Of a DNA stretch of 64,000 nucleotides, positions 397-61,211 are shown piece by piece. The translations under genes were made by a program, and so were the position numbers. This DNA is from Vogesella urethralis. GTDB lineage: Bacteria; Pseudomonadota; Gammaproteobacteria; Burkholderiales; Chromobacteriaceae. Under the pieces are notes generated by a model. It made no database searches. It worked only from the letters and a program-made list of their open reading frames with translations, and was not told the DNA's origin. Numbering within the stretch: position 1 is the stretch's first letter; every line of letters starts with the position of its first letter. Location of the stretch: assembly GCF_007644045.2 (NCBI RefSeq), contig NZ_VMDW02000054.1:1-64000 (forward strand), given 5' to 3'.

Positions 397-1173
397 ATGC
401 TCATGCGCTACCCGACACTGCTCCCGCTTTCCCTCATCATCCTGCTTGGCCTGGCTGGCTGCGCCAGCAACAAGGCCCGCGAAGAAGCCGACCGCGCCCG
501 CGTGCAGCTGTCTGCCGACGGCAAACGCCTGATCTACAACGGCAAGATCAAGGCGGCCACCGTCGACGAGGCGCTGGCGCTGTACAAGGCGGCCAACCCC
601 AAACCCGACACGCTGGACATCTCCAGCCAGGGCGGCAGCCTGTACGACGGCATCCGCCTGGGCACCCTGGTATACAAGCAACAGCTGGACGTGCGCATTT
701 TTGGCGAGTGCGCGTCTTCGTGCGCTAACTACATTTTCCCTGCCGGCAAGCGCAAGTTCCTGCTGCCCAACAGCCGCCTGCTGTGGCACGGCGGCATGCT
801 GCAACCGGACTGGCACGCGCGCATCGATAAGCTCTACGCCAAGCCGGACGAGAAACTGGCGGCGCTGGAAGATCACGAATGGATGCTGCAGCGCGAAGCG
901 GCTTACTTCCGCATGATCGGTGTCGACCCGCTGCTGACGGTGTGCGGCCAACATGAAGCCTTGCGCGAGGCGCACCCGGACACGCACGGTTTCGATTACA
1001 CGCTGGAAGATCTGGCCCGTTTTGGCGTGACCCAGGTGCAGACCGTGGGCCGCCCGTGGCGCCCCAGCGGTGACGACGGCAAGATCTTCCGCGCCAGCTA
1101 CTGCACGTCGGCGCCGGCACAAACCCAGCAGTTACTGAAGAACGCCAGCAAGTATTCGTCCGAAGACGACTGA
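397..1173 (+). CDS. ClpP/crotonase-like periplasmic lipoprotein
   Basis: This 258-residue protein starts with a lipoprotein signal peptide ending in a GLAGC lipobox, with Cys22 as the predicted lipidated residue. The body resembles predicted periplasmic proteins with a ClpP/crotonase-like fold: an ISSQGGS turn near residues 75-81, then GECASSCANY at 103-112, then His131 in WHGG. A Ser107 or Ser108 nucleophile paired with His131 has about the Ser-to-His spacing of ClpP, so a serine protease activity in the periplasm is plausible but inferred. Cys105 and Cys109 flank the serine and could form a disulfide. It is a single-gene unit ending at a strong bidirectional terminator. No specific gene name is recognised. 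Confidence 0.65.
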   Translation: MLMRYPTLLPLSLIILLGLAGCASNKAREEADRARVQLSADGKRLIYNGKIKAATVDEALALYKAANPKPDTLDISSQGGSLYDGIRLGTLVYKQQLDVRIFGECASSCANYIFPAGKRKFLLPNSRLLWHGGMLQPDWHARIDKLYAKPDEKLAALEDHEWMLQREAAYFRMIGVDPLLTVCGQHEALREAHPDTHGFDYTLEDLARFGVTQVQTVGRPWRPSGDDGKIFRASYCTSAPAQTQQLLKNASKYSSEDD

Positions 1174-1192
1174 TAGCGCCTTGGCGGCAGGG

Positions 1193-1202
1193 GTTGGCCG
1201 CA
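1193..1202 (+). repeat. Copy of the GTTGGCCGCA word
   Basis: An exact copy lies 20 bases after the stop codon of the ClpP-like lipoprotein gene and just before the terminator. It belongs to the window-wide repeated word described in the findings. Confidence 0.8.
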
Positions 1203-1211
1203 GGCACACAG

Positions 1212-1247
1212 CACAAGGCCCGGCTGCTATCGCAGCCGGGCCTTGTG
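1212..1247. terminator. Bidirectional terminator between convergent genes
   Basis: A perfect 16-bp inverted repeat (1212-1227 and 1232-1247, four-base loop) lies between the stop codons of the lipoprotein gene and the efflux permease gene, which converge here. It has no long T run, but stem strength and position fit a shared terminator. Confidence 0.75.
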
Positions 1248-1268
1248 TCATGCGGGCACCCTGCGTCC

Positions 1269-4200
1269 TCAGTCGTGCGCCTGCGCTACCTGCTGCCCGC
1301 TCAGTCTGGCCAGCAAGCGGCGGATACGGCTGCGCAGCCCGTCCATACAGGTGTACACCACCGGCACCACGATCAGCGTCAGCACCGTCGAGGTAATCAT
1401 GCCGCCGATGATGGCGTGCGCCATCGGCCGCTGCGTCTCCGACCCGGCACCGCTGGCCAGCGCCAGCGGCAGCATGCCGAAAATCATCGCCAGGCTGGTC
1501 ATCATGATCGGGCGCAGCCGCACGCGGCCCGCCTCCACGATAGCGTCCAGCCGCGACATGCCCTCGCGCCGGCTCTGGTTGATGAAGTCCACCAGCAGAA
1601 TGCCGTTTTTCGACGCCAGACCCATCAGCATGATGATGCCGATCACCGAGAACATATTCAGCGTGGAGCCGAACGCCAACAGCGCCACGAACACGCCGAC
1701 AAAGGCCAGCGGCAGCGCCACCATGATGGTGATGGGCAGGGTGAAGCTGCGGAACTGCGCTGCCAGAATCATGTAGATGAAGATCACCCCCATCGCCAGC
1801 GCCTGCACCGCGTAGCCCAGCGACTCCTGCATGTCCTGGCGCTCGCCCTGCTGCGACAGCACCACGCCCGGCGGCAACTTCAGCTGCTTCAGTAGCTTGT
1901 CCACGTCGGCAAACACCTCGCCCGAACTGCGGCCGCTGATATTGGCGGTAATGCTGATCTCGCGCATCAGGTCGGTGCGCTCGATCTGGCGCGGGCTGGT
2001 GGCCGGGCTGATCGCCGCCACCTGCGACAGCGGCACCATCTGCGCCTCGCCACCGTCGGCGCGCTTGCCCGGTACCGTCAGCACGTCCAGCAGCTCGGCG
2101 GCGCGTTCGTCACGCGGAACCTGCAGCCGCACGCTGTAGTTTTCGCCGTCCGGTGCCTCCCAGGTGGTGGCGGTACTGCCACCCAGCAGCACCGACAGCG
2201 TAGTGCCAACGCGGGCCAGGTCCACCCCCAGGTTGGCCGCAGCATCGCGTTGCAGCTGCACGTTCAGCGCCGGGTCGGCGTCGCTCAGGCTGGACGCCAC
2301 GTCGCTGACGCCTTTCACCTGGCGCAGCGCGGCCATCAGCTGGTCGGTCGCCTGCTGCAGCTGCTGCAAGTCGCTGCCACGCACGCCCAGGTTCACCGGC
2401 TTGCCCGGCGGGCCGTGCTGGCCGGTTTCCTCCACCGAGTCCACCTCGATGCCGGCTACCTGCAATGCGGCCTGGCGGGCCAGCGGCATCAGCGTGAACA
2501 GCGTACGCTCGCGCTGCTGCTTGTCGCCCACATTGATGCTCAGCCGGGCCTCGTTGCGACCGGCGCCAAAGCTGCCGCCGCCGATCTTGCTGTCGATGGT
2601 TTTCACTTCCGGCATCACGGCACGGATGCGGGCCTCCACCTCGCGCGCCTTGGCCTCGGTGTAGTCCAGCGAGGAGCCGGCCGCGGTTTTGAAGGTCAGC
2701 CGGAACTCGCCCTTGTCGGCCGCCGGCATGAATTCGCCACCGATGACCGGCACCAGCATGAAGCTGCCCACCGTCATTGCCAGTGCGCTGGCCACCACCG
2801 TTTTGCGGTGCCCCAGCGCCCAGCGGATGGCGCCCACGTAGCGTTCGGCCAGCCGGTCCAGCGACGCCTCGAACCAGTCCAGCAGGCGACCGACCGGGCC
2901 GCGGTGCTTGTCGCCGTGGTGATGCGGGTCGTGCCAGATCGACGACAGCATCGGGTCCAGCGTAAACGACACCAGCAGCGAGATCAGCACCGCCACCGTC
3001 ACGGCCAGGCCGAACTGGTGGAAGAACTTGCCGATGATGCCGCCCATGAAGCCCACCGGCAGGAACACCGCCACGATGGTCAGCGTGGTGGCCAGCACCG
3101 CTAGGCCGATCTCGTTGGTGCCGTCCAGCGCCGCCTGGAAGTGGGTCTTGCCCAGGTTGGCGTGGCGCACGATGTTCTCGCGCACCACGATGGCGTCGTC
3201 GATCAGCAGGCCCACCGATAGCGACAGTGCCATCAGCGTCATCATATTGAGGGTGAAGCCCATCGCCTGGATGGCAAACAGGGTGCCGATCATCGAAATC
3301 GGCAGCGTCAGCCCGGTAATCACCGTACTGCGCCAGCTGCCCAGGAACAGGAACACGATCAGCACCGTCAGCACGGCGCCTTCGATCAGCGTTTTTTGTA
3401 CTTCGTGCAGCGAACCCTTCACGTCTTCCGACTTGTCGTACGTGAGCCGCAACTCGGTGCCGGCCGGCGCCTGACTGCGGTATTCGTCGATGATGCGTTT
3501 GACGCCCTCGGCCACTTTCACCACATTGGCGCCACGCGCGGCGCGGATGTCCAGCCCCACCCCCGGCTTGCCGTCGATCAGCGTCACGCTGTTGCGCTCA
3601 GCTTCACTGTCTTCTACCGTGGCCAGGTCAGACAGGCGGATGTCGCGGCCGTCCCGGCTGGCAATCACCAGGTTGCGGAAGTCATCTATCGTCTTGAGCT
3701 TGCCGGCCACGCGCACCGCCAGTTCGTTACTCTGGGTGCTGACCTGGCCCGCCGGGTAGTCACGGTTGGCCGCCGCAATAGCGTCCGATACCTCGCTTAC
3801 CGACAGTCCCAGCGCCTCCAGCCGGTACGGGTCCAGATTGACACGCACTTCGCGCTTGCTGCTGCCCACCAGCTTCACCTCGCCCACGCCGGCCACCGTC
3901 TGCAAACGCTTCTTCAGCACGTTGTCGGCCCAGGTGGACAGCTCGCGCTGGCTGCTCTGCGCAGAGCTGAGCGTGTACGACATCAACGGGTCGTCGTTGG
4001 GGTTCATCTGCGAAATGGTGGGGGTATCCACCTCGCGCCGCAGGCTGCCCTGCACCGCGCCCACCTTGTCGCGCACTTCCTGCAAGCCCTGCGCGGCGTC
4101 AGTGGACAGTTCGAACTCCACCACCACCACCGAGCTGCCTTCAAACGAATAGGAGCGGATGTGCTTGACGCCGTTGATGGTATTCACCGCTTCTTCGATG

Positions 4201-4397
4201 GGGCGGGTGACGTCACTTTCCACCACCTCGGGCGACGCGCCCTGATAGCTGGTGGAAACCACGGCCACCGGGAAGCGGATATCGGGAAACTCCTCCACCG
4301 GCAGATTGCGCCAGGCAAACAGGCCCAGCACCGTCAGCAACAGCATCAGTACGGCGGCGAAGTACGGGTTTTGCACACTGACACGGGTCAGCCACAT
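1269..4397 (-). CDS. RND efflux permease (HAE1/AcrB-type)
   Basis: This 1042-residue inner-membrane transporter has the full RND layout: an N-terminal transmembrane helix, a large periplasmic porter loop, a six-helix bundle, and the same arrangement repeated in the second half. Family motifs include NLPVEEFPDI early on and the proton-relay pair Asp400-Asp401 in SVGLLIDDAIV. It would export hydrophobic or amphiphilic compounds using the proton gradient, together with the adaptor encoded just upstream (13 bases between the genes) and an outer-membrane channel that is not in this window. No TetR or other regulator gene lies beside it. The substrate cannot be told from sequence. The closest relatives are multidrug-type permeases of betaproteobacteria. 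Confidence 0.92.
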   Translation of the reverse strand: MWLTRVSVQNPYFAAVLMLLLTVLGLFAWRNLPVEEFPDIRFPVAVVSTSYQGASPEVVESDVTRPIEEAVNTINGVKHIRSYSFEGSSVVVVEFELSTDAAQGLQEVRDKVGAVQGSLRREVDTPTISQMNPNDDPLMSYTLSSAQSSQRELSTWADNVLKKRLQTVAGVGEVKLVGSSKREVRVNLDPYRLEALGLSVSEVSDAIAAANRDYPAGQVSTQSNELAVRVAGKLKTIDDFRNLVIASRDGRDIRLSDLATVEDSEAERNSVTLIDGKPGVGLDIRAARGANVVKVAEGVKRIIDEYRSQAPAGTELRLTYDKSEDVKGSLHEVQKTLIEGAVLTVLIVFLFLGSWRSTVITGLTLPISMIGTLFAIQAMGFTLNMMTLMALSLSVGLLIDDAIVVRENIVRHANLGKTHFQAALDGTNEIGLAVLATTLTIVAVFLPVGFMGGIIGKFFHQFGLAVTVAVLISLLVSFTLDPMLSSIWHDPHHHGDKHRGPVGRLLDWFEASLDRLAERYVGAIRWALGHRKTVVASALAMTVGSFMLVPVIGGEFMPAADKGEFRLTFKTAAGSSLDYTEAKAREVEARIRAVMPEVKTIDSKIGGGSFGAGRNEARLSINVGDKQQRERTLFTLMPLARQAALQVAGIEVDSVEETGQHGPPGKPVNLGVRGSDLQQLQQATDQLMAALRQVKGVSDVASSLSDADPALNVQLQRDAAANLGVDLARVGTTLSVLLGGSTATTWEAPDGENYSVRLQVPRDERAAELLDVLTVPGKRADGGEAQMVPLSQVAAISPATSPRQIERTDLMREISITANISGRSSGEVFADVDKLLKQLKLPPGVVLSQQGERQDMQESLGYAVQALAMGVIFIYMILAAQFRSFTLPITIMVALPLAFVGVFVALLAFGSTLNMFSVIGIIMLMGLASKNGILLVDFINQSRREGMSRLDAIVEAGRVRLRPIMMTSLAMIFGMLPLALASGAGSETQRPMAHAIIGGMITSTVLTLIVVPVVYTCMDGLRSRIRRLLARLSGQQVAQAHD

Positions 4398-4410
4398 AGC
4401 GGGTTACTCC

Positions 4411-5532
4411 TCAAGGCTTGGGCAGGGTGACGGCGTCACCCGGCTTCATGCCCAGCAAGGCCGCGGCCAACACGGTCTGGCCAGCGGCCACCCCCTGTAC
4501 CGCGAAGCGGCGGTCGGTATCGGAACGCAGCACCACCGTCACCGGCTGCTTCACCAGTTTGCCGTTCTGCACCAGCAGCAGCCACGGGTTGGCGCTGTCG
4601 GCCTGCTGCACCGCGGCCTGCGGCACGGCGATGGCGTCGGTCACTTCGCGCAGCACGATGCCGCCCTTGGCAAACTGGCCGGCTTTCAGGCGGCCGTCGG
4701 CGTTGGCCACGCGGATGTAGGCATTGAAGGTACGGGTAGCGCTGGCAGCAACCGGGTTGATGCGTACCAGCTCGCCACGGAACTCGCCGTCCTGGCCTTC
4801 CACCTGGAAGCGGGCTTGCTGGCCGGGCTGCAAGCGCGACACCAGCCGCGCCGGAATGCTGGCACTGCCTTCCAGTACCGACAGATCGGCAATGGCGAAC
4901 AGCTTCTGGTTCTTGCTGGCCTGCTCACCCGGCTGGGTACGGCGGGCGTACACGGTACCGGCCATCGGCGCGCGTACTTCGGTTTCGCCCAGGCTCTTCC
5001 TGGCGCGGGCCAGCTGACTACGGCGAGCGGCCAACTCGCCTTCGCGGATCTGGTAGTCGTTTTCGATTTCATCGAACGCCAGCTTGGAGATGAAGCCCTG
5101 CTGGTACAGCTCGCGCTGCTTGTCGCGCTTGAGACGCGCCAGCTTCAGCCGCGCTTCGTCGTTGGTCAGCTGGGCCTGCATTTCCAGCACGTTCTGGCGC
5201 AAAGCTTCGCCGTCGATGCGCGCCAGCAGCTGGCCTTTCTGTACCGTTTCGCCCTCGCGCACCAGCACCTCCAGCACGCGGCCTTCGGCCTCGGCGGCCA
5301 CTTCGGCGCTGTTGAGCGGGTTCAGCGTGGCGGTGAACGGCAGCAGCTCGGCCACCGCGCTCACCTTGGTCAGCAGCAGGTCCGCCGGCGCCAGGGCGCG
5401 GCTGGGCGCGGCGGCGGCCGGGCTGCTGGCCGACGCGGCAGCGTCAGCATTCTTGTTGCTGCAGGCAGTAATGCCCAGCGCGGTCGCGGCCAGCAAGGCC
5501 AGCCACAGCGGGGCGCGATGCAATGTATGCAT
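4411..5532 (-). CDS. RND periplasmic adaptor (membrane fusion protein)
   Basis: The 373-residue product begins with a lipoprotein signal (lipobox GITAC), so it is probably anchored in the inner membrane. It then shows the usual adaptor order: a split lipoyl/barrel-sandwich domain (VLVREGETVQKGQLLARID and later RAPMAGTVYARRTQPGEQ), a helical hairpin between its halves, a beta-barrel and a membrane-proximal domain. It links the RND permease encoded immediately downstream to an outer-membrane channel. The two genes are on the same strand with a short gap and are almost certainly co-transcribed. Length and domain order are normal for the HlyD/AcrA-like family. Confidence 0.92.
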   Translation of the reverse strand: MHTLHRAPLWLALLAATALGITACSNKNADAAASASSPAAAAPSRALAPADLLLTKVSAVAELLPFTATLNPLNSAEVAAEAEGRVLEVLVREGETVQKGQLLARIDGEALRQNVLEMQAQLTNDEARLKLARLKRDKQRELYQQGFISKLAFDEIENDYQIREGELAARRSQLARARKSLGETEVRAPMAGTVYARRTQPGEQASKNQKLFAIADLSVLEGSASIPARLVSRLQPGQQARFQVEGQDGEFRGELVRINPVAASATRTFNAYIRVANADGRLKAGQFAKGGIVLREVTDAIAVPQAAVQQADSANPWLLLVQNGKLVKQPVTVVLRSDTDRRFAVQGVAAGQTVLAAALLGMKPGDAVTLPKP

Positions 5533-5593
5533 GGCAGGTTCGTCCTTGGTCTGGCGCGGCCAACTGTGCCGCGCCGGCGTCAGTCAATCGGTA

Positions 5594-6856
5594 TCAGGGG
5601 TTGGCCTGCGGCTGCAGGCCACGCGGCCACAGCAGCCACAAGCGGCCGCTTTGTTTCATGCGGCCGGCGTACAGCCCGGCTTCGGTGCCGAAGCCGAAGA
5701 AAAAGTCGGCGCGTACGCCGCCACGAATGGCGCCGCCGGTGTCCTGGGCGTTCACCAGGCGGTTCAGCGGCTTGGCCGGGCCGTCGAGCGGCCAAGTGGT
5801 AGACAGGTACACCGGCGCGCCCAGCGGAATGTAGCGCGGGTCAACCGCAATGCTGTACCCGCCCAGCAGCGGCACGCCCAGCGCGCCCAGCGGGCCGTTG
5901 TCGTCGGCCGGCAGCGTTTTGAAAAACACGTAGCTGGGGTTGGCGTTGAACAGCTCGTCCTTGCGCCCAGGGTTGGCCGCAATCCATTCCTTGATGCTTT
6001 GCATCGACACATCCGACAGCTTCATCTGGCCGTTATCCACCAGCCAGCGGCCGATGGACTTGTAGCCGTGGCCGTTCTGCTCGGCGTAACCGGCCCGCAG
6101 ATAGCGGCCGTCTTCCAGCTGGATACGGCCGGAGCCCTGCACCTGCAGGAAGAACAGCTCGGTATCGTTTTCCACCCAGGCCAGTACCGGCGCGGTGTTG
6201 ACGCCCTTGCCGGCGTTGATCTCGGCGCGGGTGTAGTACGGGCGCAGCCGGCCCTGCTCGATGCGGCCTTTCAGCGCGCGGGTGCGGCTATCGATGACGA
6301 ATTCTTTCGGGTACACCAGCAGCTCGCCGGCATCGGCGCGGGTCTTGCCCGGCACCACTTGCAGGCGGTTGCCGCCAGCGGGCTTGGCCACCACCACCTC
6401 GGCACCCAGCTGAGCCGCGCTGGCGTCCAGCACACGCAAGTCGGCCGGCACGCCGTATACCGGGTACGGCGTCTGCGCCGACTGTTGCACGCCGCCAGCC
6501 AGCAGCGGCTCGAAGTAACCGGTGATCAGGCCGCTGTCCTTGCCCTGCTCGCTGATTTGCCACGGCGTAAAGCGGGTTTCGTAAAAGCGGGTCACCGTCG
6601 GCAGGTTGGCCGCGTCCAGGCTGGCGGCTTCGGCACAGATGTCTTTCCACGCCGGGCGGCCCTGCAGGGTACGGCAGCTGATGCGCAGGCCTTCCAGGCT
6701 CTGGGACGCCATGCTGTTGCCCCAATCGGGCAGGTCGCTGAAACGGGCTTGCTGATAGCGCACGTTGCTGCTGGCGGAGGAACCCGATGGTGGCGACACG
6801 GTGGAACAGGCGGCCAGCAACAGCAGTGCCGACAGGGGCAGGAAAGTCTTGAGCAT
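5594..6856 (-). CDS. mltA: Membrane-bound lytic murein transglycosylase A
   Basis: This 420-residue outer-membrane lipoprotein (lipobox LLAAC near the N-terminus) cleaves peptidoglycan strands to leave 1,6-anhydromuropeptides. The MltA barrel domain contains the ITGYFEPLLAG stretch, and a C-terminal 3D domain contains AQDTGGAIRG and RADFFFGFG. Asp372 and Asp384 lie in these conserved stretches and include the likely catalytic acid. The gene lies 61 bases upstream of the RND adaptor gene on the same strand. There is no clear terminator between them, so read-through into the efflux genes is possible. Length is typical of the beta- and gammaproteobacterial family. Confidence 0.95.
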   Translation of the reverse strand: MLKTFLPLSALLLLAACSTVSPPSGSSASSNVRYQQARFSDLPDWGNSMASQSLEGLRISCRTLQGRPAWKDICAEAASLDAANLPTVTRFYETRFTPWQISEQGKDSGLITGYFEPLLAGGVQQSAQTPYPVYGVPADLRVLDASAAQLGAEVVVAKPAGGNRLQVVPGKTRADAGELLVYPKEFVIDSRTRALKGRIEQGRLRPYYTRAEINAGKGVNTAPVLAWVENDTELFFLQVQGSGRIQLEDGRYLRAGYAEQNGHGYKSIGRWLVDNGQMKLSDVSMQSIKEWIAANPGRKDELFNANPSYVFFKTLPADDNGPLGALGVPLLGGYSIAVDPRYIPLGAPVYLSTTWPLDGPAKPLNRLVNAQDTGGAIRGGVRADFFFGFGTEAGLYAGRMKQSGRLWLLWPRGLQPQANP

Positions 6857-6917
6857 GGTGGTATGTGGGTGCGACGACGCCGCAATGCATGGTAAGGATG
6901 GTAGCCGGCTGACAATG

Positions 6918-6955
6918 GCAAAACCGGCAAGTTCAGATGGTACTGAACCGCCGGT
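6918..6955 (-). terminator. Rho-independent terminator downstream of the glutathione peroxidase gene
   Basis: Two nested inverted repeats (ACCGGC 6923-6928 with GCCGGT 6950-6955, and GTTCAG 6931-6936 with CTGAAC 6943-6948) form a stem. On the minus strand it is followed by a short T run. It fits the end of the peroxidase transcript. Confidence 0.7.
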
Positions 6956-7015
6956 CAGGTAGGCAAATGACAGTTGGCTGACTGTGGCAGCTTCTGCCCT
7001 GTTATCCAGGCAAGG

Positions 7016-7546
7016 CTAGCGCGGCAGGGCGGCGCCGACGGCCTTCAGGAACTCGGCCGAATCGGGCCGCGTCAAGGAGCTGAAGGCGGTGACGGTCTTG
7101 CCGTCGGCCGAAATCACATACTTATAGAAATTCCACTTCGGCGTGGTGCCGCTGGCCTCGGCCAGCGCTTGGTAAAACGGATGAGCGTCGCTGCCGCGCA
7201 CTTTTACCCGGCTGGACATCGGAAAGCTGACACCGTAATTGCTCTGGCAGAAGCTGGCCACGTCGGCATCTTTGTCCAGCTCCTGGTTGAAGTCGTCACT
7301 GGGGAAGCCCACCACCACCAGGCCTTTGGCGCGGTAATCCTGCCACAGCTTTTGCAGGGTTTTGTACTGCGGGGTAAAGCCGCATTCGCTGGCGGTATTC
7401 ACCACCACTACCGCCTTGCCGCTGTACTCGCACAGGTTGAGCTTGCCGCCCATCAGTGCCGGCACCTGGTGATTCAGCAACGGCGGACAGGCCGCCACCG
7501 CCGCCAGCGGCGCCGCCCACAGCAGGGCAAACAGGGTTCGCTTCAT
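7016..7546 (-). CDS. Exported glutathione peroxidase family protein
   Basis: The protein reduces peroxides with thiol electrons. It carries the family core VVVNTASECGF with Cys55 as the peroxidatic residue (cysteine rather than selenocysteine), a degenerate FPSDDFNQE motif and the conserved WNFYKY tryptophan motif. I start it at 7546 because an AAGGA ribosome site sits just upstream and the resulting N-terminus is a good signal peptide (MKRTLFALLWAAPLAAVAA). An upstream in-frame ATG at 7585 would hide this signal. Export to the periplasm is inferred. Its neighbour upstream is a thioredoxin gene on the same strand, a possible electron donor, although that protein has no signal peptide. Confidence 0.88.
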   Translation of the reverse strand: MKRTLFALLWAAPLAAVAACPPLLNHQVPALMGGKLNLCEYSGKAVVVVNTASECGFTPQYKTLQKLWQDYRAKGLVVVGFPSDDFNQELDKDADVASFCQSNYGVSFPMSSRVKVRGSDAHPFYQALAEASGTTPKWNFYKYVISADGKTVTAFSSLTRPDSAEFLKAVGAALPR

Positions 7547-7593
7547 GATATGACTGTCCTTGTTGATCTCGGGTCTGGCTGACACGGCGCCAT

Positions 7594-7603
7594 GTTGGCC
7601 GCA
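7594..7603 (+). repeat. Copy of the GTTGGCCGCA word
   Basis: An exact copy in the short gap between the thioredoxin stop codon and the peroxidase start. Confidence 0.75.
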
Positions 7604-7652
7604 TCAGGCTCAGACCCGCTGCGGCGGTGCAGGTTCGCGCCGCCACCGGTGC

Positions 7653-8015
7653 TCAGTCTTGCTGCGCGGCGATCTCGGCGCGCACTTTGTCCATGTCCAG
7701 GTCGCGGATGGCCTGGATCAGCTGCTCGAACTGGCCGGCCATCATGGCACCCGCCTGGTGGAACACCACGATGCCGTCTTTCAGCGCCATCAGCGTGGGG
7801 ATGGAACGGATCTGGAAATGCGCGGCCAGTTCGCGCTCGGCTTCGGTGTCGATCTTGGCGAACACGATGTCCGGGTGCTTCTGCGCTGCCGCCTCGAACA
7901 CCGGGCCGAACATCTTGCACGGGCCGCACCAGTCGGCCCAGAAGTCCAGCATCACGATGCCTTCACGCTCGGCGTAGTCGTTGAAGGTATCGGCGGTAAG
8001 GTTGATATGGCTCAT
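7653..8015 (-). CDS. Thioredoxin
   Basis: This 120-residue cytoplasmic thioredoxin has the active site WCGPC (Trp29, Cys30, Cys33) and the cis-proline motif SIPTL further on. I start it at 8015, where an AGGAAA ribosome site precedes ATG and MSHINLTADTF aligns with the usual thioredoxin N-terminus. The reading frame stays open further upstream, but that sequence is not thioredoxin-like and runs into a repeat element. The C-terminus is about a dozen residues longer than classic TrxA. It is probably a secondary thioredoxin; the exact paralogue name is uncertain. Confidence 0.9.
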   Translation of the reverse strand: MSHINLTADTFNDYAEREGIVMLDFWADWCGPCKMFGPVFEAAAQKHPDIVFAKIDTEAERELAAHFQIRSIPTLMALKDGIVVFHQAGAMMAGQFEQLIQAIRDLDMDKVRAEIAAQQD

Positions 8016-8160
8016 GAGGATTTCCTGATCGGTTAAACGACGGCGCTGCCGTCCATAGCCTGCAAGATGGCTACCTTTGGCGCCGAATACAAGCGCGAAG
8101 GGATGGTATTTTTTTATCGAGGTGATAGCGGGCGCTGCGGTGCGACGATGAATGTGCCAG

Positions 8161-8170
8161 GTTGGCCGCA
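8161..8170 (+). repeat. Copy of the GTTGGCCGCA word
   Basis: An exact copy marks one edge of the palindromic element at 8175-8259 in the gap between the thioredoxin and methyltransferase genes. Confidence 0.8.
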
Positions 8171-8174
8171 ACGG

Positions 8175-9359: not shown

Positions 9360-9363
9360 GGCC

Positions 9364-53945: not shown

Positions 53946-53948
53946 GGC

Positions 53949-54698
53949 TTACAGCACCTTTGCGTCGTTTTTCAGTTTGGCTACCAGCTCGGCGGCATTG
54001 GCAACCTTGATACCGGCGGAGCGCTTGGCAGGCTCGGCCACTTTCAGGGTTTTCAGACGCGGGGTCACGTCCACGCCCAGGTCGGCCGGGGTGGTTTTGT
54101 CCAGCGGCTTTTTCTTGGCGGCCATGATGTTCGGCAGCTTGACGTAGCGCGGCTCGTTCAGGCGCAGGTCGGTGGTCACCACCGCCGGCAGACGCAGCTT
54201 GACGGTTTCCAGACCGCCGTCCACTTCGCGGGTCACGTCCACGGTTTCGGCGGACAGGTCCACTTTGGACGCGAAGGTACCCTGACCCCAGCCCAGCAGC
54301 GCGGCAGCCATCTGGCCGGTCTGGTTGGCGTCGTCATCGATGGCCTGTTTGCCCACGATCAACAGCTGCGGCTGCTCTTTGTCGGCAACGGCTTTCAGCA
54401 GTTTGGCTACCGCCAGCGGCTGCAGCTCGGCGTCGGTTTCCACCAGAATGGCGCGGTCGGCACCCATGGCCAGTGCGGTGCGCAGGGTTTCCTCGCACTG
54501 CTTCACGCCCATGGACACGGCGACGATCTCGGTGATCTTGCCGGCTTCTTTCAGACGCACCGCCTCTTCCACGGCGATCTCGTCGAACGGGTTCATCGAC
54601 ATCTTGACGTTGGCCACATCCACGTCGGTGCCATCGGCCTTGACGCGTACTTTCACGTTGTAATCGACAACGCGTTTCACAGCGACTAGAGCTTTCAT
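53949..54698 (-). CDS. etfB: Electron transfer flavoprotein beta subunit
   Basis: This 249-residue AMP-binding subunit has [20 protein letters not shown] at the start and the beta-ETF signature [19 protein letters not shown]. It is the first gene of etfB-etfA-acd. A PsrA-like palindrome lies 77 bases upstream. Confidence 0.96.
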
Positions 54699-54774
54699 AT
54701 TCCTCCAGCAGACTCTTCAGGTTTCAACGACTCGCCCCGAGCGGGCAGCGGTTGCATTGTAGCGCGCCGCCAAG

Positions 54775-54790
54775 TCAAACGAGCGTTTAA
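54775..54790. promoter_or_regulatory. PsrA-like palindrome between etfB and the PhaJ-like gene
   Basis: TCAAACGAGCGTTTAA has six of seven arm bases paired and fits the C/G-AAAC-N4-GTTT pattern. It shares its arrangement with the site at 18391-18404. Located between divergent genes of acyl-CoA metabolism (54699-54998), it could serve both. The rest of the 300-base gap shows nothing else I can name. Confidence 0.5.
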
Positions 54791-54998
54791 TTGGTAAACT
54801 GACCACAAAAAAAACATGCAGTACAACAGGGGTGTGCAGATATTACGCCATTTCCCCGCAATTTGCATTTGGGGCAAAGCGTGTCAGAATGCAGCGCAAC
54901 ATTGAGCATGTCATAAGCAGAAAAACAGGCAGGAACACCTTGAAAGTGGCGCCGGCGCTGGGCTGGCGTTGCATACCGCCTTCCGCAAAGGAGTTGTG

Positions 54999-55418
54999 AT
55001 GACAGTCTATTTCGAAGACATCCAGATCGGCGATTCTGCCGAGTACGCCAAAACCATTACCGAAGCCGATATCCTGATGTTCAGCGCCGTATCCGGCGAC
55101 GATAACCCGGTACACATCAACCAGGAATACGCCGAAAGCTCGATGTTCCAGACCCGCATCGCGCACGGCATGCTCACCGCCAGCCTGATCTCCACCGTGG
55201 TCGGCACCCGCCTGCCGGGCAACGGCACCATCTACCTGTCGCAATCCACCAAATTCAAAGCCCCGGTCAAAATCGGCGAAACCGTCACCGCCCGCGTCAC
55301 CGTCACCGAGCTGGACCCGGCCAAAAAGCGCGTGAAGTTTGCCACCGCCTGCCTGGTAAAAGGCAAAGTGGTGCTGGAAGGCGAATCGCTGGTGATTGCC
55401 CCGTCGCGCCCGGCCTGA
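54999..55418 (+). CDS. MaoC-family (R)-specific enoyl-CoA hydratase (PhaJ-like)
   Basis: This hot-dog-fold hydratase of 139 residues has the hydratase 2 motif: Asp and His in SGDDNPVHINQEYAESSMF, then RIAHGMLTASLIS. It hydrates enoyl-CoA to (R)-3-hydroxyacyl-CoA, feeding polyhydroxyalkanoate synthesis or lipid metabolism. Start 54999 has AAAGGAG upstream. It overlaps the next gene by one base (TGATG) and is divergent from etfB. Confidence 0.9.
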   Translation: MTVYFEDIQIGDSAEYAKTITEADILMFSAVSGDDNPVHINQEYAESSMFQTRIAHGMLTASLISTVVGTRLPGNGTIYLSQSTKFKAPVKIGETVTARVTVTELDPAKKRVKFATACLVKGKVVLEGESLVIAPSRPA

Positions 55419-55876
55419 TGACCGCGCTGGACATCGTGCCGCTGTGCGACGACAGCGGGCGCATCCTCCGCGCCGACCTGGCCGATACCTTGTGTGTGCT
55501 GCATCGGCAATTGCGACCGATGCTGCCGGATAACGGCGCCGCCTACCTGGCCAAGATGCAGCGTGTCTGCCACTACGGCGCGCGCCTGGTGGCCGCGCTG
55601 GACAGTGACGGGCGACCGGTCGGCATGGCGCTGTACCGGGTGTACGAAAATACCTACGAGGACCTGCGTCTGTACGTGGACGACCTGGTCAGCGACGAGG
55701 CCGCCCGCTCGCAAGGCGTGGGCAGCCAACTGCTGGCGTGGTGCGAGGCGCAAGCGCGCACGGCCGGTTGCCGCTTCATCGTGCTGGACTCCGGCACCTG
55801 GCGCACGCAGGCGCACAAGCTGTACTTCCGCCTGGGCTTCAGCATTACGTCGTTTCACTTCACCAAACCGCTGTAA
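55418..55876 (+). CDS. GNAT family N-acetyltransferase
   Basis: This 152-residue GNAT protein has the acetyl-CoA loop in ARSQGVGSQLLAWCEAQA and a C-terminal strand LYFRLGFSITSFHF. The substrate is unknown. It is translationally coupled to the PhaJ-like gene (TGATG) and followed by a terminator. Confidence 0.85.
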   Translation: MTALDIVPLCDDSGRILRADLADTLCVLHRQLRPMLPDNGAAYLAKMQRVCHYGARLVAALDSDGRPVGMALYRVYENTYEDLRLYVDDLVSDEAARSQGVGSQLLAWCEAQARTAGCRFIVLDSGTWRTQAHKLYFRLGFSITSFHFTKPL

Positions 55877-55896
55877 GCACCACAAGGCCTATCACC

Positions 55897-55936
55897 GCCT
55901 GAAGCTTGGCCCGCTGCGGCCAACCTTCAGGCTTTT
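55897..55936 (+). terminator. Terminator whose stem contains the repeated word
   Basis: GCCTGAAG (55897-55904) pairs with CTTCAGGC (55925-55932). The inner part TTGGCC/GGCCAA continues the stem with one mismatch, followed by T5. The copy of the repeated word at 55915-55924 forms the right inner arm. Confidence 0.9.
55915..55924 (-). repeat. Copy of the GTTGGCCGCA word inside a terminator
   Basis: An exact copy, in the long form TGCGGCCAACCTT, is part of the terminator stem between the acetyltransferase gene and convergent queG. Confidence 0.85.
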
Positions 55937-57006
55937 TGTTGCTGTTGCTGCAAGGCCCAGGCCACCGATTCACGCACGATGTCGGCCGCGTCGTCGGCCC
56001 TGCCCTGCAACGCCTGGACAACCTCGGCGCTGTACGGTGCATTGCCCAGCGCAATGGCAATATTGGACAGCCACTTGGCATAGCCGATGCGATAAATGGG
56101 GCTGCCCGCCATGCGCTGCTGGAAGTCCTGCTCATGCCAGGCAAACAGCGCCAGCAGGCTGACGTCGTCCAGGCCGTGTCGCACGGCAAAGTCGGCCTCG
56201 CGGCTGGGCACCACGAATCGGTTCCACGGGCACACCAGCTGGCAATCGTCGCAACCATAGATACGGTTGCCGATCAGCGGGCGCATCGGTTCGGGGATGG
56301 CGCCTTTCAGCTCGATGGTGAGGTAAGAGATGCATCGCCGCGCGTCTACCGTGTACGGCGCCACGATGGCGCCGGTAGGGCAGGCGTCGATACAGCGCGT
56401 GCAGCGACCGCAATGGCCGTCTTCGGCCTCGTCTTCCGGCAACGGCAGGTTGGTGAGGATTTCGCCTAGAAAAAACAGCGACCCCTGCTTCTTGTTCAGC
56501 AATAGCGTGTGCTTGCCGCGCCAGCCCTGCCCGGCTTGCGCCGCCAGCGCCACCTCGGCCAGCGGTGCGCTATCGGTAAACACGCGGAACTGGTGCGCCG
56601 GTACCGCGGCACTGATCTGCTCCGCCAGCTTCTGCAGCCGGTTGCGCAGCACTTTGTGATAGTCGCGCCCCAGGGCATAGCGCGAAATGTAGGCCTGCTG
56701 CGGTCGCGTCAGCACCTGCTCGGCGTCGGCGGCGGACTCGGGCCAGTAATGCATGCGCAGGCTGATGACACGCAGCGTGCCGGGTACCAGCTCGGCCGGG
56801 CGAACCCGCAGTGCACCATGACGCGCCATGTAGTCCATCTCGCCGTGGTAAGCTGCGGCCAACCATGTCGCCAGTTGCTGTTCGGCCTCTGGCGGCAGCT
56901 CGGCGCGGGTGATACGGGCCTCGGCAAAGCCCAGATCCTGCGCCCAGCGCTTGATTTGGCCTGCCAAATCGCGATAATTCTCGTTTTTACAGGATATTTC
57001 ACTCAT
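55927..57006 (-). CDS. queG: Epoxyqueuosine reductase
   Basis: This iron-sulfur and cobalamin enzyme of 359 residues makes the last step of tRNA queuosine synthesis. Two [4Fe-4S] motifs are clear, CGRCTRCIDACPTGAI and GCDDCQLVCPWN, and the N-terminal half has GEMDYMARHGALRVRP. A C-terminal HEAT-like segment is present. Start 57006 gives MSEISCKN, matching other QueG N-termini. That codon overlaps the start codon of the divergent tsaE, and no ribosome site is visible. Confidence 0.93.
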   Translation of the reverse strand: MSEISCKNENYRDLAGQIKRWAQDLGFAEARITRAELPPEAEQQLATWLAAAYHGEMDYMARHGALRVRPAELVPGTLRVISLRMHYWPESAADAEQVLTRPQQAYISRYALGRDYHKVLRNRLQKLAEQISAAVPAHQFRVFTDSAPLAEVALAAQAGQGWRGKHTLLLNKKQGSLFFLGEILTNLPLPEDEAEDGHCGRCTRCIDACPTGAIVAPYTVDARRCISYLTIELKGAIPEPMRPLIGNRIYGCDDCQLVCPWNRFVVPSREADFAVRHGLDDVSLLALFAWHEQDFQQRMAGSPIYRIGYAKWLSNIAIALGNAPYSAEVVQALQGRADDAADIVRESVAWALQQQQQKA

Positions 57007-57496
57007 GGCCATGGATGATACCAGTGTCGCAAGCGGCCACCTGGCCGACGAAGCCGCCACCCTGCAACTGGGTAGCCGCATCGCCAGCGTACTGCGCGGC
57101 GGCGTACAGTTGCAGCTGCACGGCGACCTGGGGGCCGGCAAAACCACCTTTACCCGTGGCCTGCTGCAAGGCCTGGGGCACCAGGGGCGCGTAAAAAGCC
57201 CCACCTATACCCTGGTGGAAAGCTATCCGCTGCCGATATTCAGTGTGCACCACTTTGACTTGTACCGCTTCAACGACCCGGAAGAATGGTACGACGCCGG
57301 CTTTGCCGATTATTTTGCCGACGATACCGTCTGTATCATCGAATGGCCAAACAAGGCCGCCGGCGTGCTGCCGGCGCCCGATCTGGTACTGGAACTTGAC
57401 GTGGCAGGCGATGGTCGCAACTACCGCCTCCATGCCCACAGTGAAACAGGACAAGCATGTCTCAATCGCTTCATGACCCACTGCGCCGCAAGCTGA
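57005..57496 (+). CDS. tsaE: tRNA threonylcarbamoyladenosine biosynthesis ATPase TsaE
   Basis: This 163-residue P-loop protein works with TsaB, TsaC and TsaD to make t6A37 in tRNA. It has [26 protein letters not shown] and HFDLYR motifs. Start 57005 or 57011 is possible (two ATGs); an AGGATA lies upstream within queG. Its last 40 bases overlap amiC, as tsaE and amidase genes are often paired. Confidence 0.93.
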
Positions 57497-58695
57497 TCGG
57501 CGCCGCAGCGGCTACCTTCCTGCTGACCGTCAGCCGCGCCGGCCTTGCCGCCGGCAGCCAGGTGGTGGCGGTACGGGTGTGGCCGTCGTCCACCTACACG
57601 CGGCTGACCATCGAGGCCAGCAGCGAAATCCGCTACAAGCACTTCAGCCTGGCCAACCCCAACCGGCTGGTCATCGACCTGGAAGACGTGCAGCTCACCG
57701 GCGTGCTGCAGGATGTCAGCGGCCAGATCCAGTCTGCCGACCCTTTCATCCGCACCGCGCGCGCTGGCCAGTTCAACGGCAATACCGTGCGCCTGGTACT
57801 GGACCTGCGCAATGAAGTAAAACCGCAGATCTTCTCGCTGAAGCCGGTCGCCGAGTATCAGCACCGGCTGGTGGTCGACCTGTACCCGGCCAACGGGCAG
57901 CAGGACGACCCGCTGCTGGCACTGCTGCAGGACTACAACAAAGGCCAGCTGGACAATAACGCCCCCCGCGGCAACAAGGGCAAAACCGACCCGGCGCGCC
58001 CGGTGGTGATCATGATCGACCCTGGTCACGGCGGCGAAGACCCTGGCGCCATCGGCCCCAGCGGCACGCGCGAGAAAGACGTGGTGTTACGCATCGGCCG
58101 TCAGCTGAAGAAGCTGATCGACGCCGAAAAGAACATGAAAGCCTACCTCACCCGCGACGAAGACGTGTTCCTGCCGCTAGGCGTGCGGGTAGCCAAGGCG
58201 CGCAAGATCGGCGCCGACCTGTTCATCTCGGTGCACGCCGACGCGGTAGAAAACCGCACAGCCCGCGGCTCGTCGGTGTTTGCGCTGTCGGAAAACGGCG
58301 CCACCAGTGCCATGGCGCGGCTGCTGGCCAAGTCGCAGAACGAGGCCGACATGATCGGCGGTGTAAAAATCGCCGGCAAGGACAAATACCTGGCGCATAC
58401 GCTGTTCGACCTGACCCAGACCGCCACCATCAACGACAGCCTGAAGCTGGGCAAGGCGGTACTGGGCAAAATGGGCGACCTCAACAAACTGCACAAGCCC
58501 AAGGTGGAGCAGGCAGGGTTTGCCGTGCTGAAAGCCCCGGATATCCCGTCCATTCTGGTGGAGACGGCCTTTATCAGCCACCCGGAAGAAGAACGCAAGC
58601 TGGTCGACCCGGCGTTCCAGCAAGACATGGCCGAAGCCATCCTGTCCGGCGTACGCACCTACTTTGCCCAAGGGGCCGTTATTGCCCGCACCTGA
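57457..58695 (+). CDS. amiC: N-acetylmuramoyl-L-alanine amidase (AmiC-like)
   Basis: This 412-residue periplasmic amidase separates daughter cells by cutting the stem peptide from muramic acid. It has a twin-arginine-like signal ([20 protein letters not shown]), an AMIN domain (about 37-145) and an Amidase_3 domain (about 180-400) with zinc residues in [11 protein letters not shown] and SVHADA and catalytic Glu in [13 protein letters not shown]. It overlaps tsaE by 40 bases. Confidence 0.93.
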
Positions 58696-58702
58696 GCCGG
58701 TG

Positions 58703-58712
58703 TGCGGCCAAC
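58703..58712 (-). repeat. Copy of the GTTGGCCGCA word
   Basis: An exact copy, in the long form TGCGGCCAACCTTGCG, lies eight bases after the amiC stop codon and just before the terminator. Confidence 0.85.
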
Positions 58713-58720
58713 CTTGCGCC

Positions 58721-58758
58721 CAAACAAAAAGCGCTGCCATGGCAGCGCTTTTTGTTTG
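58721..58758. terminator. Bidirectional terminator between amiC and yacG
   Basis: Two perfect 18-base arms (58721-58738 and 58741-58758) surround a two-base centre. The GCGCTGCC core is flanked by A5 and T5. Confidence 0.95.
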
Positions 58759-58770
58759 GGCAATACCAGG

Positions 58771-58959
58771 CTAGAGAGAATCCAGCTCGCGCATCGGGTC
58801 GTCGCCCGACACCGGCACACGGTAATCTTCGTTGGCCCACTGGCCAAGGTCGATCAGGCGGCAGCGCTCGCTGCAGAACGGACGGTACGGACTTTGCGGG
58901 CCCCAGGGCACCGCTGTCTTGCACTGCGGACAGGGCACGATACGGGGTGTGGTGGTCAT
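58771..58959 (-). CDS. yacG: DNA gyrase inhibitor YacG (zinc protein)
   Basis: This zinc-binding protein of 62 residues has the CPQCKT and FCSERC cysteine pairs and the YacG-type [12 protein letters not shown]. It binds GyrB and lowers gyrase activity. Its start codon follows the zapD stop by two bases (TGATCATG). The order coaE-zapD-yacG matches E. coli. Confidence 0.93.
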
Positions 58960-58961
58960 GA

Positions 58962-59747
58962 TCAGAACTTGCAATAGGTCAGGGAAAATTCCACGTCGTC
59001 TTCTACCTGGCGGGCACGTACCTCGCCGGTAGCGGCATGGATGAAACGTACATTGATCGCGTATTTGTTGGCCGATACTTCCGGCACCAGCGGCAGCCCG
59101 CTTTCGAAACCGATACGGATCAGCTGCACCACCTTGCCGCCGGACATCTGCTGAAACGCACCTCGGCGCGCGTGGTACTGGTGCGTCTTGCCGCTATCGC
59201 GCAGCAGCTTGAGCAGGATGTTGGCCGCACGGGCGGTCGGCATCAAGGGTGCCGCCCAGCGTTGCAGGTCGGCCCGGCGCTGCTCGCTGTCCCGCTGCAA
59301 CCACAGGTGGTAGGACGGCAAATCAAACTGGCAGGTACCGCCAGGAATGACGGCACGCTGCTTGATGGTCATCAGCCATTCGTTTTCACGCAGGTGCTGG
59401 CCGAACTTGCCGGTAATGTCGAGCAGGCTGGCCATGGTGCGCTCGATTTCATCGAGCTGCTGTTCCAGCACGTCTTGCTGCACCACCGGATTGTCACGCA
59501 GGCTTTCCAGCCCCAGCTTCTGCCGCTCCAGCTCCTGTAGCAAATCGGACTTCAGCTCGGTACGGCCCGCAGCCTCCAATACCTCGAACAGCGCCATCAG
59601 TGCCGCGTGGTGGGAATAGGTTTCGTCCTGCCCGATGAAAAACACCAGACGCTGGTAGACCTGCTCCAGGCGGAGCAAGGTTCGCGTACGTTCGACAAGG
59701 GGAAACTCGAAACTGGTCACAGCGGCGGTCCGTGGTTGAAATGTCAT
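58962..59747 (-). CDS. zapD: Cell division protein ZapD
   Basis: This 261-residue FtsZ-bundling protein has an alpha-helical domain ([19 protein letters not shown]) and a beta domain. It stabilises the Z ring. It overlaps coaE by four bases. Confidence 0.93.
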
Positions 59748-60361
59748 GCCGGCGCGGCAAGGCCAAAGCAGGCTAGATAATAACGGTGTTTGGCGTCGAC
59801 TTGAAGCGCCAATGCATCGAGATCGGCATCGTTGCTGATCACGTCGTCAGCCAGCAATAAACGCTGCTCGCGCGGCATCTGCGCCGCAATGATGGCGCTG
59901 ACTTGCGGTGCCGGCAGGCCATTGCGTGCCATCACTCTGGCGATCTGGGTTTCCGTCGGACAATCTACCACCAGCGTTCGTGCCACCAGATCGCGGTAAC
60001 GTGCACTTTCGAACAGCAAAGGTACCGCCAGCAAACGGTAAGGGGCGTCCAGTGCGGCCAACTGCCGCAGGCTTTCCTGATGGATCAGCGGGTGCAGAAT
60101 GGCTTCCAGCTGCTGCCGAGCGGCGGGCTGCGAAAATACCAGCGCGCGCATGGCGCCACGGTCCAGCGCGCCGTCTTGCTGGCGCATGGCGGGGCCAAAC
60201 CCCGCCACAATGGCCGGCATGGCAGCGCCGCCTGGCGCGGTGAGCTGGTGCGAGACGGTATCGGTATCGATGCAGGGAATGCCATGCCCGGCGAACAGGC
60301 GGGCCACCGCGCTCTTGCCGCTGCCGATGCCGCCGGTCAGACCAACAATCGGGCTAGCCAC
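59744..60361 (-). CDS. coaE: Dephospho-CoA kinase
   Basis: This kinase of 205 residues makes the last step of coenzyme A synthesis. It has the P-loop GLTGGIGSGKS and DTDTVSHQL motifs. GTG 60361 is preferred as start over TTG 60379 because it gives MASPIVGLTGG, the usual short N-terminus. It overlaps the end of pilD by eight bases. Confidence 0.92.
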   Translation of the reverse strand: MASPIVGLTGGIGSGKSAVARLFAGHGIPCIDTDTVSHQLTAPGGAAMPAIVAGFGPAMRQQDGALDRGAMRALVFSQPAARQQLEAILHPLIHQESLRQLAALDAPYRLLAVPLLFESARYRDLVARTLVVDCPTETQIARVMARNGLPAPQVSAIIAAQMPREQRLLLADDVISNDADLDALALQVDAKHRYYLACFGLAAPA

Positions 60362-61211
60362 CCAGATACCAAGCCACAATGGGCTTGCCCCACACGAAGG
60401 CGATCATGCCAGCCGCCGCCAGGTACGGGCCAAACGGCATGGTCTGCCCGGCGCGATGGCGCTTCAGCGCCATCATGGCGACACCGAATACGGCCCCGAC
60501 CAGCGATGACAGCAGCACCACCAGCGGCAACAGGCTCCAGCCCAGCCAGGCGCCCAATGCGGCCAACAGTTTGAAGTCGCCGTAGCCCATGCCTTCCTTA
60601 CCGGTGGCCAGCTTGAACAGCCAGTAGATCGACCATAAGGACAAGTAGCCCGCCATCGCGCCGACCACTGCATCGGCCAGCGGCACGGTCACGCCCAGCA
60701 GGCTGAACAGCAAGCCAGCCCATAACAACAGCAAGGTGAGATCGTCCGGCAGCAGCTGGGTTTCGGCATCGATCAGCGTCATCGCCAACAGCAGCAAACA
60801 AAACACACTGGCGGCCAACCATGGCAGGCCCAGCCCCAGCTGCCAGGCAAACCCGCCCAGCAACAAGCCGGATACCAGCTCTACCAGCGGGTAACGCCAG
60901 GCGATAGCACCGCCACAGCTGGCGCACTTGCCACGCTGCAGCAAGAAACTGAATACGGGGATGTTCTGCCAGGCCCGGATCGGCGTCTGGCAATGCACAC
61001 AGGCAGAGGGCGGGTACAGCAGGTCGTAGCGGGCTTGCACCTCGGGCGTTTGCCCTTGCAGCACGGCGCACTCCTGCTGCCATTGTCGTTCCAGCATCAG
61101 CGGCAAGCGGTGGATGACGACATTGAGGAAACTGCCTAACAACAGGCCAAGTAACACCGCGACACCGGTTTGCCACGCCAGTGGCAACATTTGCAGATTC
61201 TCCAGCATCAA
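60354..61211 (-). CDS. pilD: Prepilin peptidase / N-methyltransferase
   Basis: This 285-residue polytopic enzyme cuts type IV prepilins and methylates the new N-terminus. It has the zinc cysteines Cys71, Cys74, Cys96 and Cys99 and the catalytic aspartates Asp148 (LIDAE) and Asp212 (GYGDFK). It would process both the pilins and the Gsp pseudopilins G-K encoded in this window; the gsp operon has no gspO of its own. It overlaps pilC by four bases. Confidence 0.95.
   Translation of the reverse strand: MMLENLQMLPLAWQTGVAVLLGLLLGSFLNVVIHRLPLMLERQWQQECAVLQGQTPEVQARYDLLYPPSACVHCQTPIRAWQNIPVFSFLLQRGKCASCGGAIAWRYPLVELVSGLLLGGFAWQLGLGLPWLAASVFCLLLLAMTLIDAETQLLPDDLTLLLLWAGLLFSLLGVTVPLADAVVGAMAGYLSLWSIYWLFKLATGKEGMGYGDFKLLAALGAWLGWSLLPLVVLLSSLVGAVFGVAMMALKRHRAGQTMPFGPYLAAAGMIAFVWGKPIVAWYLGG

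Follow-up and report, generated by a model that had tools for sequence, protein, structure and literature searches.

A genome-wide 10-base word of Vogesella and its sister words in Chromobacteriaceae: probable DNA uptake sequences associated with a ComP-type minor pilin

DNA uptake sequences (DUSs) have been described in the family Neisseriaceae, for which the sections of Frye 2013 on dialects (PMC3630211) list eight DUS dialects, all of which keep CTG at positions +6 to +8 and A at +10, and report 943–5918 exact copies per genome. The DUS is bound by the minor pilin ComP, whose solved structures (PDB 5HZ7, 2NBA, and 2M3K) are dealt with in part of PMC4906244. In the family Pasteurellaceae, the uptake signal sequence (USS) occurs in dialects, and passages of PMC12616744 propose the minor pilin ComN/PpdA as its receptor. 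The relevant portion of the TerminatorNet paper (PMC13020248) places uptake words of both families in terminators and does not name the genera treated here. In this study we analyzed a 64-kb stretch of DNA from Vogesella urethralis (GCF_007644045.2, contig NZ_VMDW02000054.1, positions 1–64,000; hereafter, the window), a member of Chromobacteriaceae, in which a sequence-only reading had pointed out a highly repeated 10-mer, GTTGGCCGCA, with the placement of a DUS. Our comparisons indicate that GTTGGCCGCA is very probably the DUS of Vogesella and one of at least three sister dialects of a DUS/ComP system in Chromobacteriaceae; these would be new dialects outside Neisseriaceae that have the core CCG in place of CTG and mostly go without the second disulfide of the receptor.

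Counting both strands, GTTGGCCGCA occurs 37 times without mismatch in the window, between positions 943 and 60567 (Table 1), in agreement with the approximately 37 copies, their coordinates, and the two orientations given by the sequence-only reading. One hundred dinucleotide shuffles of the window yielded a mean of 0.51 copies and a maximum of 3, bearing out the earlier estimate of well under one copy by chance, and an order-3 Markov model ranked GTTGGCCGCA first among all 10-mers of the window (37 vs 0.48 expected). By our own gene calls, 19 of the 37 copies are intergenic, namely, all 17 that had been listed as non-coding, 14 of which extend to GGTTGGCCGCA as had been counted, and the copies at 44106 and 44116. 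A stop codon lies within 40 bases of 12 of these 19 copies and of 10 of the 17 listed ones, most of which had been placed near stops. The longer extension AAGGTTGGCCGCA is present nine times, and the 9-mer GTTGGCCGC occurs 65 times, with A as the tenth base in 37 cases, C in 14, G in 9, and T in 5. The inverted pairs that had been noticed were found at 8281/8301 and 44106/44116, the latter two copies abutting to form a perfect 20-bp palindrome, while the terminator stems mentioned with them involve a minority of intergenic copies, as described below. A scan of the window against Rfam at gathering scores gave no match.

Genome-wide statistics were obtained from whole-genome word counts, with the reversed word as an equal-composition control, and from de novo k-mers in a 461-kb sample of the same genome (the window, 260 kb of contig C81, and contig C9). 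The two strands of the whole genome (4,028,666 bases in 157 contigs) carry 922 and 949 copies of GTTGGCCGCA, 1871 in total, approximately 130 times more than the 14 copies of the reversed word and far from expectation; the 461-kb sample has 216 copies vs 3.8 expected. In this sample, single-base variants at positions 1–9 were mostly at or below expectation, the few higher ratios resting on 1–9 copies. At position 10, C (96 copies vs 7.9 expected), G (76 vs 5.8), and, more weakly, T (17 vs 4.5) were found besides A, so that in the window's species the word amounts to GTTGGCCGC followed by a relaxed tenth base. In its relative G060, 286 copies end in A vs 9 in C, 17 in G, and 1 in T, G being 3.9 times expectation. 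AAG is favored upstream of the 83 intergenic copies of the 461-kb sample (A 0.61, A 0.73, G 0.66), and the extended word is therefore (A)AG-GTTGGCCGCA; beyond approximately four bases on each side, little sequence is conserved.

We surveyed 61 Chromobacteriaceae genomes and 399 genomes of the order, 386 of which lie outside the family. Genus g1 of the survey, to which the window belongs, is Vogesella, and all 13 of its genomes have 1871–2895 copies of GTTGGCCGCA (the GCA word) vs 8–58 copies in the other 48 family genomes and at most 52 in each of the 386 order genomes. De novo k-mer counts in 40 kb each of ten genomes representing the nine other genera of the family revealed GTTGGCCGAG (the GAG word) in g5 and GTTGGCCGAA (the GAA word) in g6, g7, g9, and, more weakly, g10; no sister word was found in the 40-kb samples of g2 (G002), g3, g4, and g8. 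There are 183–2168 copies of GTTGGCCGAA in eight genomes (G010, G036, G037, G038, G045, G046, G047, and G048) and no more than 47 in any of the 386 genomes outside the family, and GTTGGCCGAG, counted within the family only, has 1940 copies in G034 and 1590 in G035. G046, with 1104 copies of GTTGGCCGAA, is probably Pseudogulbenkiania ferrooxidans 2002, which we take to be the 'Lutiella nitroferrum 2002' of Frye 2013. The three words consist of GTTGGCCG followed by CA, AA, or AG, and judging from their sequences they represent at least three sister dialects in Chromobacteriaceae. The scope of the sequence-only reading, which had concerned one genome, is thereby widened to 23 of the 61 family genomes. 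Two g8 genomes, G040 and G043, exhibit a faint excess of the GAA word (62 and 45 copies) and of the GAG word (92 and 85), possibly a decaying or ancestral dialect. G010 is the only carrier among ten g2 genomes (GAA word, 1368 copies) and provides a close pair for the gain or loss of a word.

Placement relative to genes was determined with our own gene calls in the 461-kb sample, in 20 windows of G060, and in a Neisseria-type control, G103 of family f44, which has 1863 copies of the positive-control word GCCGTCTGAA and was one of 38 order genomes tried. The density was 1.87 copies per intergenic kb vs 0.32 per coding kb in the own genome, 1.55 vs 0.60 in G060, and 3.61 vs 0.34 in G103 with GCCGTCTGAA, and 50 of 83, 38 of 77, and 179 of 297 intergenic copies, respectively, were within 40 bases of a stop codon. 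Gaps between convergent, co-directional, and divergent genes had 4.4, 1.95, and 0.52 copies per kb in the own genome and 2.65, 1.25, and 1.04 in G060. Divergent gaps were also lowest in G103 (1.08), but co-directional gaps (4.9) exceeded convergent ones (3.58) there, unlike the order seen in Vogesella. In the same pipeline, GTTGGCCGCA behaves like the Neisseria DUS, being strand-balanced, intergenic, and located near stops. The coding copies, 133 of the 216 in the 461-kb sample, have frame preferences, and the 132 framed ones favor AAN (50), LAA (36), and VGR (24), the residues being assigned by hand. Abutting inverted pairs, i.e., 20-bp palindromes, number 6 in the 461-kb sample and 8 in the G060 sample and represent the commonest inverted spacing.

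The sequence-only reading had suggested looking for a ComP-like minor pilin, and the carriers do encode a ComP-type minor pilin with a class III signal and the type IV pilin fold. In profile searches and in Foldseek searches with the predicted fold, the best matches of the carrier pilin were the solved Neisseria ComP structures, and the stretch common to both lies around ENA, FY, G[FY]K, and WPxLP. A profile search of contigs with a ComP alignment returned 16 loci (a search with a single ComP returned no relative): six Vogesella species, Crenobacter oryzisoli, C. luteus, Pseudogulbenkiania subflava, P. ferrooxidans 2002, Gulbenkiania mobilis, JH1-16, and four other isolates or metagenome-assembled genomes (MAGs). 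All but L125, with its truncated called start, entered the folding alignment (15 of 16). The dialect words are found around these genes, with 9–13 GCA words in the 20 kb of each of the six Vogesella loci, 4–14 GAA words per locus in Crenobacter oryzisoli, the two named Pseudogulbenkiania, JH1-16, and Gulbenkiania, 8 GAG words in the 10.5-kb C. luteus locus, and 0 GAA words in the 7.8-kb locus of a Pseudogulbenkiania MAG. Two further pilin candidates, L012 and L017, were rejected as ComP because their PDB matches were PilE or PilA. L017 belongs to a second minor-pilin-like cluster (L018, L017, L022, and L023; G000:C72:7027-8381), besides that on C146.

The residues of the pilin were compared between the 23 carriers and 24 of the 38 non-carriers; G003, G011, and G014, whose first best matches were other pilins, stood outside this comparison, and genus g4, with weak matches (best 1.2e-14 to 1.0e-18), was in neither the comparison nor the ComP tree. 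A loop lysine and an NTD motif track the carrier genomes. The lysine is absent from the compared ComP copies of word-less lineages and, by eye, from nine further non-carriers, and within g2 the sole carrier G010 has NTD, whereas the compared relatives have NAR. NTD was not seen by eye in 11 f44 sequences. The carrier pilins have two Cys residues in 19 of the 23 genomes, three in G010 and G053, and four in G055 and G060, the extra ones lying in the N-terminal helix. In those 19 carriers only the ordinary pilin disulfide is thus possible and the C76–C125 bond of the DD region is missing; since a DD region with two disulfides was not found, we call the protein ComP-type and not ComP in the strict sense. 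One f44 genome, G224, also has a ComP-type protein (L154) with only two Cys residues, as in Chromobacteriaceae. In the ComP tree, the f44 (Neisseriaceae-type) sequences stand beside the carriers and g3 under one open fork, and a single origin is therefore neither shown nor excluded. ComEC, DprA, a PilQ-type secretin, and type IV pilus genes are present; members of the ComEC and DprA families are common, control genomes included, and thus permit the uptake of DNA without proving it.

FimT is a DNA-binding protein, and a gene of the GspH/FimT type adjoins comP. In a part of PMC8897410, FimT is reported to mediate DNA uptake in other bacteria. Together with the scarcity of the second ComP disulfide, these observations would suit an uptake word that is read by another receptor, such as FimT or PilV, and in whose recognition the ComP-like pilin takes no part. 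We consider this unlikely because profile and fold match ComP first and because the variation of ComP tracks the carriers, even within g2; moreover, ComP is, to our knowledge, the sole receptor type proven for a DUS.

The word is conserved among relatives. When four Vogesella genomes were compared in nine directed pairings (100 kb per genome, 93–95% identity), 71–88% of the words were fully conserved vs 54–66% of other 10-mers of equal composition, and identity was 0.95–0.99 within words vs 0.88–0.90 in their flanks. Copies are scarce in recently acquired DNA, as seen on two foreign-looking islands: the two G060 windows lowest in GC (0.542 and 0.532) have 1 and 2 copies, whereas the other 18 have 10–21. 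The first island, L207 (G060:C1:625001-645000), is BREX-like, with a BrxC-type gene, a methylase, RepB, and a serine recombinase, and the second, L061 (G060:C1:1050001-1070000), contains type I restriction, GmrSD, and GTPase genes. The longest word-free gap in the sampled part of the own genome weighs against a pure island rule: these 8.5 kb of C9 (GC 0.549) have SecY and RpoA genes.

High enrichment, exactness, genus-wide occurrence, and conservation can also characterize a site that is read inside the cell by a nucleoid, segregation, or recombination protein (Chi-, KOPS-, or SMC-like). Such a site is nevertheless a very improbable explanation of GTTGGCCGCA. The strict strand or origin–terminus polarity that would have distinguished Chi or KOPS was not found, as the two strands are balanced and 150 copies are leading vs 136 lagging in the 20 G060 windows (replichores by GC skew). 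The preference for gaps, convergent ones above all, the scarcity in the two islands, and the occurrence of three dialects among related genera that also have a homologue of the ComP receptor argue against it as well.

A HIP1-like or methylation-linked word, favored by a methyltransferase or restriction enzyme acting on GGCC or a longer word, was suggested by the palindrome GGCC in the core and by the restriction-modification genes that occur in the genus. This is hardly credible: GGCC alone shows no enrichment (ratio 1.02), the symmetric TTGGCCAA is underrepresented (0.44), and enrichment grows only along the asymmetric word, from 1.40 for TTGGCC to 5.9 for GTTGGCCG, 14.7 for GTTGGCCGC, and 39 for GTTGGCCGCA; the single-base variants, base 10 excepted, are mostly not enriched, and such a word would not be expected to favor intergenic and convergent positions. 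By its sequence, then, the word has neither the palindromic core of HIP1 nor the polarity of Chi and KOPS. It is extremely improbable that the word is a mobile short repeat (like a repetitive extragenic palindrome or a miniature inverted-repeat transposable element) or a conserved terminator element that multiplied, and terminators were rejected as its main role, because, against the intergenic bias, some inverted pairs, and terminator-like hairpins at 8 of 83 intergenic copies vs 4 of 120 random intergenic positions in the own genome and 10 of 75 vs 19 of 800 in G060 (18 of 158 vs 23 of 920 when pooled), most intergenic copies lie outside such hairpins, no longer repeat unit surrounds the word, and the many coding copies have frame preferences.

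The enrichment, the lack of polarity, the placement, and the ComP-type pilin thus support the DUS proposed by the sequence-only reading. If GTTGGCCGCA has this function, the ComP-type minor pilin of the type IV pilus would bind double-stranded DNA bearing the word, and this DNA would enter through the PilQ secretin; ComEC would then carry it inward and DprA would protect it before it recombines, and the word would raise uptake. Because word-bearing DNA would be taken up best, copies would accumulate via biased uptake and recombination (molecular drive) and settle mostly where they are harmless, in gaps near stop codons and at tolerant protein positions. Drive together with purifying selection on genes would account for the scarcity on islands, the exactness, the stop-proximal placement, and the conservation.

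A broader hypothesis, for which we see the chances as evenly balanced, is that DUS/ComP self-recognition predates Neisseriaceae: word and receptor would already have been paired in the ancestor shared by Chromobacteriaceae and Neisseriaceae, the word would have drifted with its receptor into a CTG-core branch and a CCG-core branch, the latter mostly without the DD disulfide, and the system would have decayed in g3, g4, g8, and most of g2. If so, freshwater Vogesella, Crenobacter, Gulbenkiania, and Pseudogulbenkiania would have gene pools limited by dialect. Only a few families are known to have uptake words, and the joint evolution of a receptor and its thousands of genomic words is an open question. 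With three dialects, a position that is relaxed, and relatives that lack the word but retain the receptor gene, a second family forms a natural series in which the pilin residues that read each base could be mapped. Confirmation of the system would contradict the indispensability of the CTG core and the DD disulfide. In practice, adding the word to DNA should ease the genetics of these environmental bacteria.

The features of the window are collected in Table 1. Genes of the PilB, PilC, and PilD types, which the sequence-only reading had named, were found at 60354–63999, their specific names resting on domains and gene order; the PilD-type peptidase would process the ComP-type pilin. A type II secretion operon lies at 40123–50149 (GspD, E, F, G, and K by Pfam; pseudopilins), and its GspE and GspF (46629–48083 and 45422–46627) are distinct from PilB and PilC at 61208–63999. 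A tie of the word to the secretion or pilus operon was rejected, as its distribution is genome-wide.

Table 1. Copies of GTTGGCCGCA, related 9-mers, and type IV pilus genes in the window
Feature	Position	Strand	Remarks
GTTGGCCGCA copy	943..952	-	coding
GTTGGCCGCA copy	1193..1202	+	intergenic, stop 24 b away
GTTGGCCGCA copy	2232..2241	+	coding
GTTGGCCGCA copy	5972..5981	+	coding
GTTGGCCGCA copy	7594..7603	+	intergenic
GTTGGCCGCA copy	8161..8170	+	intergenic
GTTGGCCGCA copy	8281..8290	+	intergenic, inverted pair with 8301
GTTGGCCGCA copy	8301..8310	-	intergenic, inverted pair with 8281
GTTGGCCGCA copy	9350..9359	+	intergenic, stop 9 b away
GTTGGCCGCA copy	11898..11907	+	coding
GTTGGCCGCA copy	16227..16236	-	intergenic
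GTTGGCCGCA copy	17217..17226	-	intergenic, stop 7 b away
GTTGGCCGCA copy	17691..17700	+	coding
GTTGGCCGCA copy	20406..20415	+	intergenic
GTTGGCCGCA copy	22153..22162	+	coding
GTTGGCCGCA copy	24368..24377	+	intergenic
GTTGGCCGCA copy	25176..25185	-	intergenic
GTTGGCCGCA copy	27527..27536	+	intergenic
GTTGGCCGCA copy	33499..33508	+	intergenic
GTTGGCCGCA copy	34133..34142	+	intergenic
GTTGGCCGCA copy	34616..34625	-	coding
GTTGGCCGCA copy	37409..37418	-	coding
GTTGGCCGCA copy	37691..37700	+	coding
GTTGGCCGCA copy	39356..39365	-	intergenic
Two abutting inverted GTTGGCCGCA copies	44106..44115, 44116..44125	-, +	intergenic, palindrome TGCGGCCAACGTTGGCCGCA
GTTGGCCGCA copy	44909..44918	+	coding
GTTGGCCGCA copy	46619..46628	-	junction of called genes 45422-46627 and 46629-48083
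GTTGGCCGCA copy	49502..49511	+	coding
GTTGGCCGCA copy	52500..52509	-	coding
GTTGGCCGCA copy	53463..53472	+	coding
GTTGGCCGCA copy	55915..55924	-	intergenic, stop 7 b away
GTTGGCCGCA copy	56854..56863	-	coding
GTTGGCCGCA copy	58703..58712	-	intergenic, stop 12 b away
GTTGGCCGCA copy	59220..59229	+	coding
GTTGGCCGCA copy	60053..60062	-	coding
GTTGGCCGCA copy	60558..60567	-	coding, inside prepilin peptidase gene
28 more GTTGGCCGC 9-mers	589..63735 (first 589, last 63727)	.	tenth base C/G/T
Prepilin peptidase (PilD-type)	60354..61211	-	Peptidase_A24 2.5e-27, A24_N_bact 2.6e-30
Type IV pilus platform protein (PilC-type)	61208..62425	-	T2SSF 6.4e-70; name by gene order
Type IV pilus extension ATPase (PilB-type)	62443..63999	-	T2SSE 1.1e-153, MshEN 8.2e-14 (62443-63972 scanned)

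Among the papers listed in searches of the open-licence PMC literature, including those on competence in Chromobacterium violaceum, we found no description of the word as an uptake sequence in Chromobacteriaceae or these genera, and the listed papers that contain one of the words have titles on other subjects. Table S1D of Frye 2013 may list GTTGGCCGAA or TTCGGCCAAC, in which case the over-representation, but not its reading as an uptake word, was seen in 2013. Kinship with the Pasteurellaceae USS was rejected as weak, with no more than 7 of 12 bases in common with three approximate USS-like strings. The likeness to that system, as far as the passages of PMC12616744 describe it, lies in an uptake word that recurs throughout the genome, has dialects, and is paired with a minor pilin as its proposed receptor, and the difference lies in the receptor, PpdA being proposed there while the candidate here is of the ComP type. 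The word and the Neisseriaceae DUS have several features in common. Both have approximately 10–12 bases, one to several thousand exact copies on both strands, proximity to gaps and stops, inverted pairs, lineage dialects, an AG prefix, and a ComP-type receptor, and the abutting palindromes recall the overlapping dyad DUS pairs that a part of PMC3630211 describes in Simonsiella and Kingella. When six of the eight published dialects were tested for similarity, the GAA 12-mer AGGTTGGCCGAA matched AG-mucDUS/AG-simDUS in register at 9 of 12 bases (shuffle p 0.003, or 0.008 with shifts and both strands), and the Vogesella word matched at 8 of 12 (p 0.015 and 0.07). The sequence-only reading had called the word unlike the Neisseria dialects; the match of AGGTTGGCCGAA speaks, with moderate support, against an overall unlikeness, while the CTG core is indeed lacking. 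The words here occur in another family, the core is CCG in all three, one dialect has G at position +10, where the Neisseriaceae have A and the window's species is relaxed, and the second disulfide of Neisseria ComP is missing from most carrier pilins. Because of the CCG core, we do not count the word among the Neisseriaceae DUS dialects proper; it probably works like a DUS and is probably an old cousin of the Neisseriaceae DUS.

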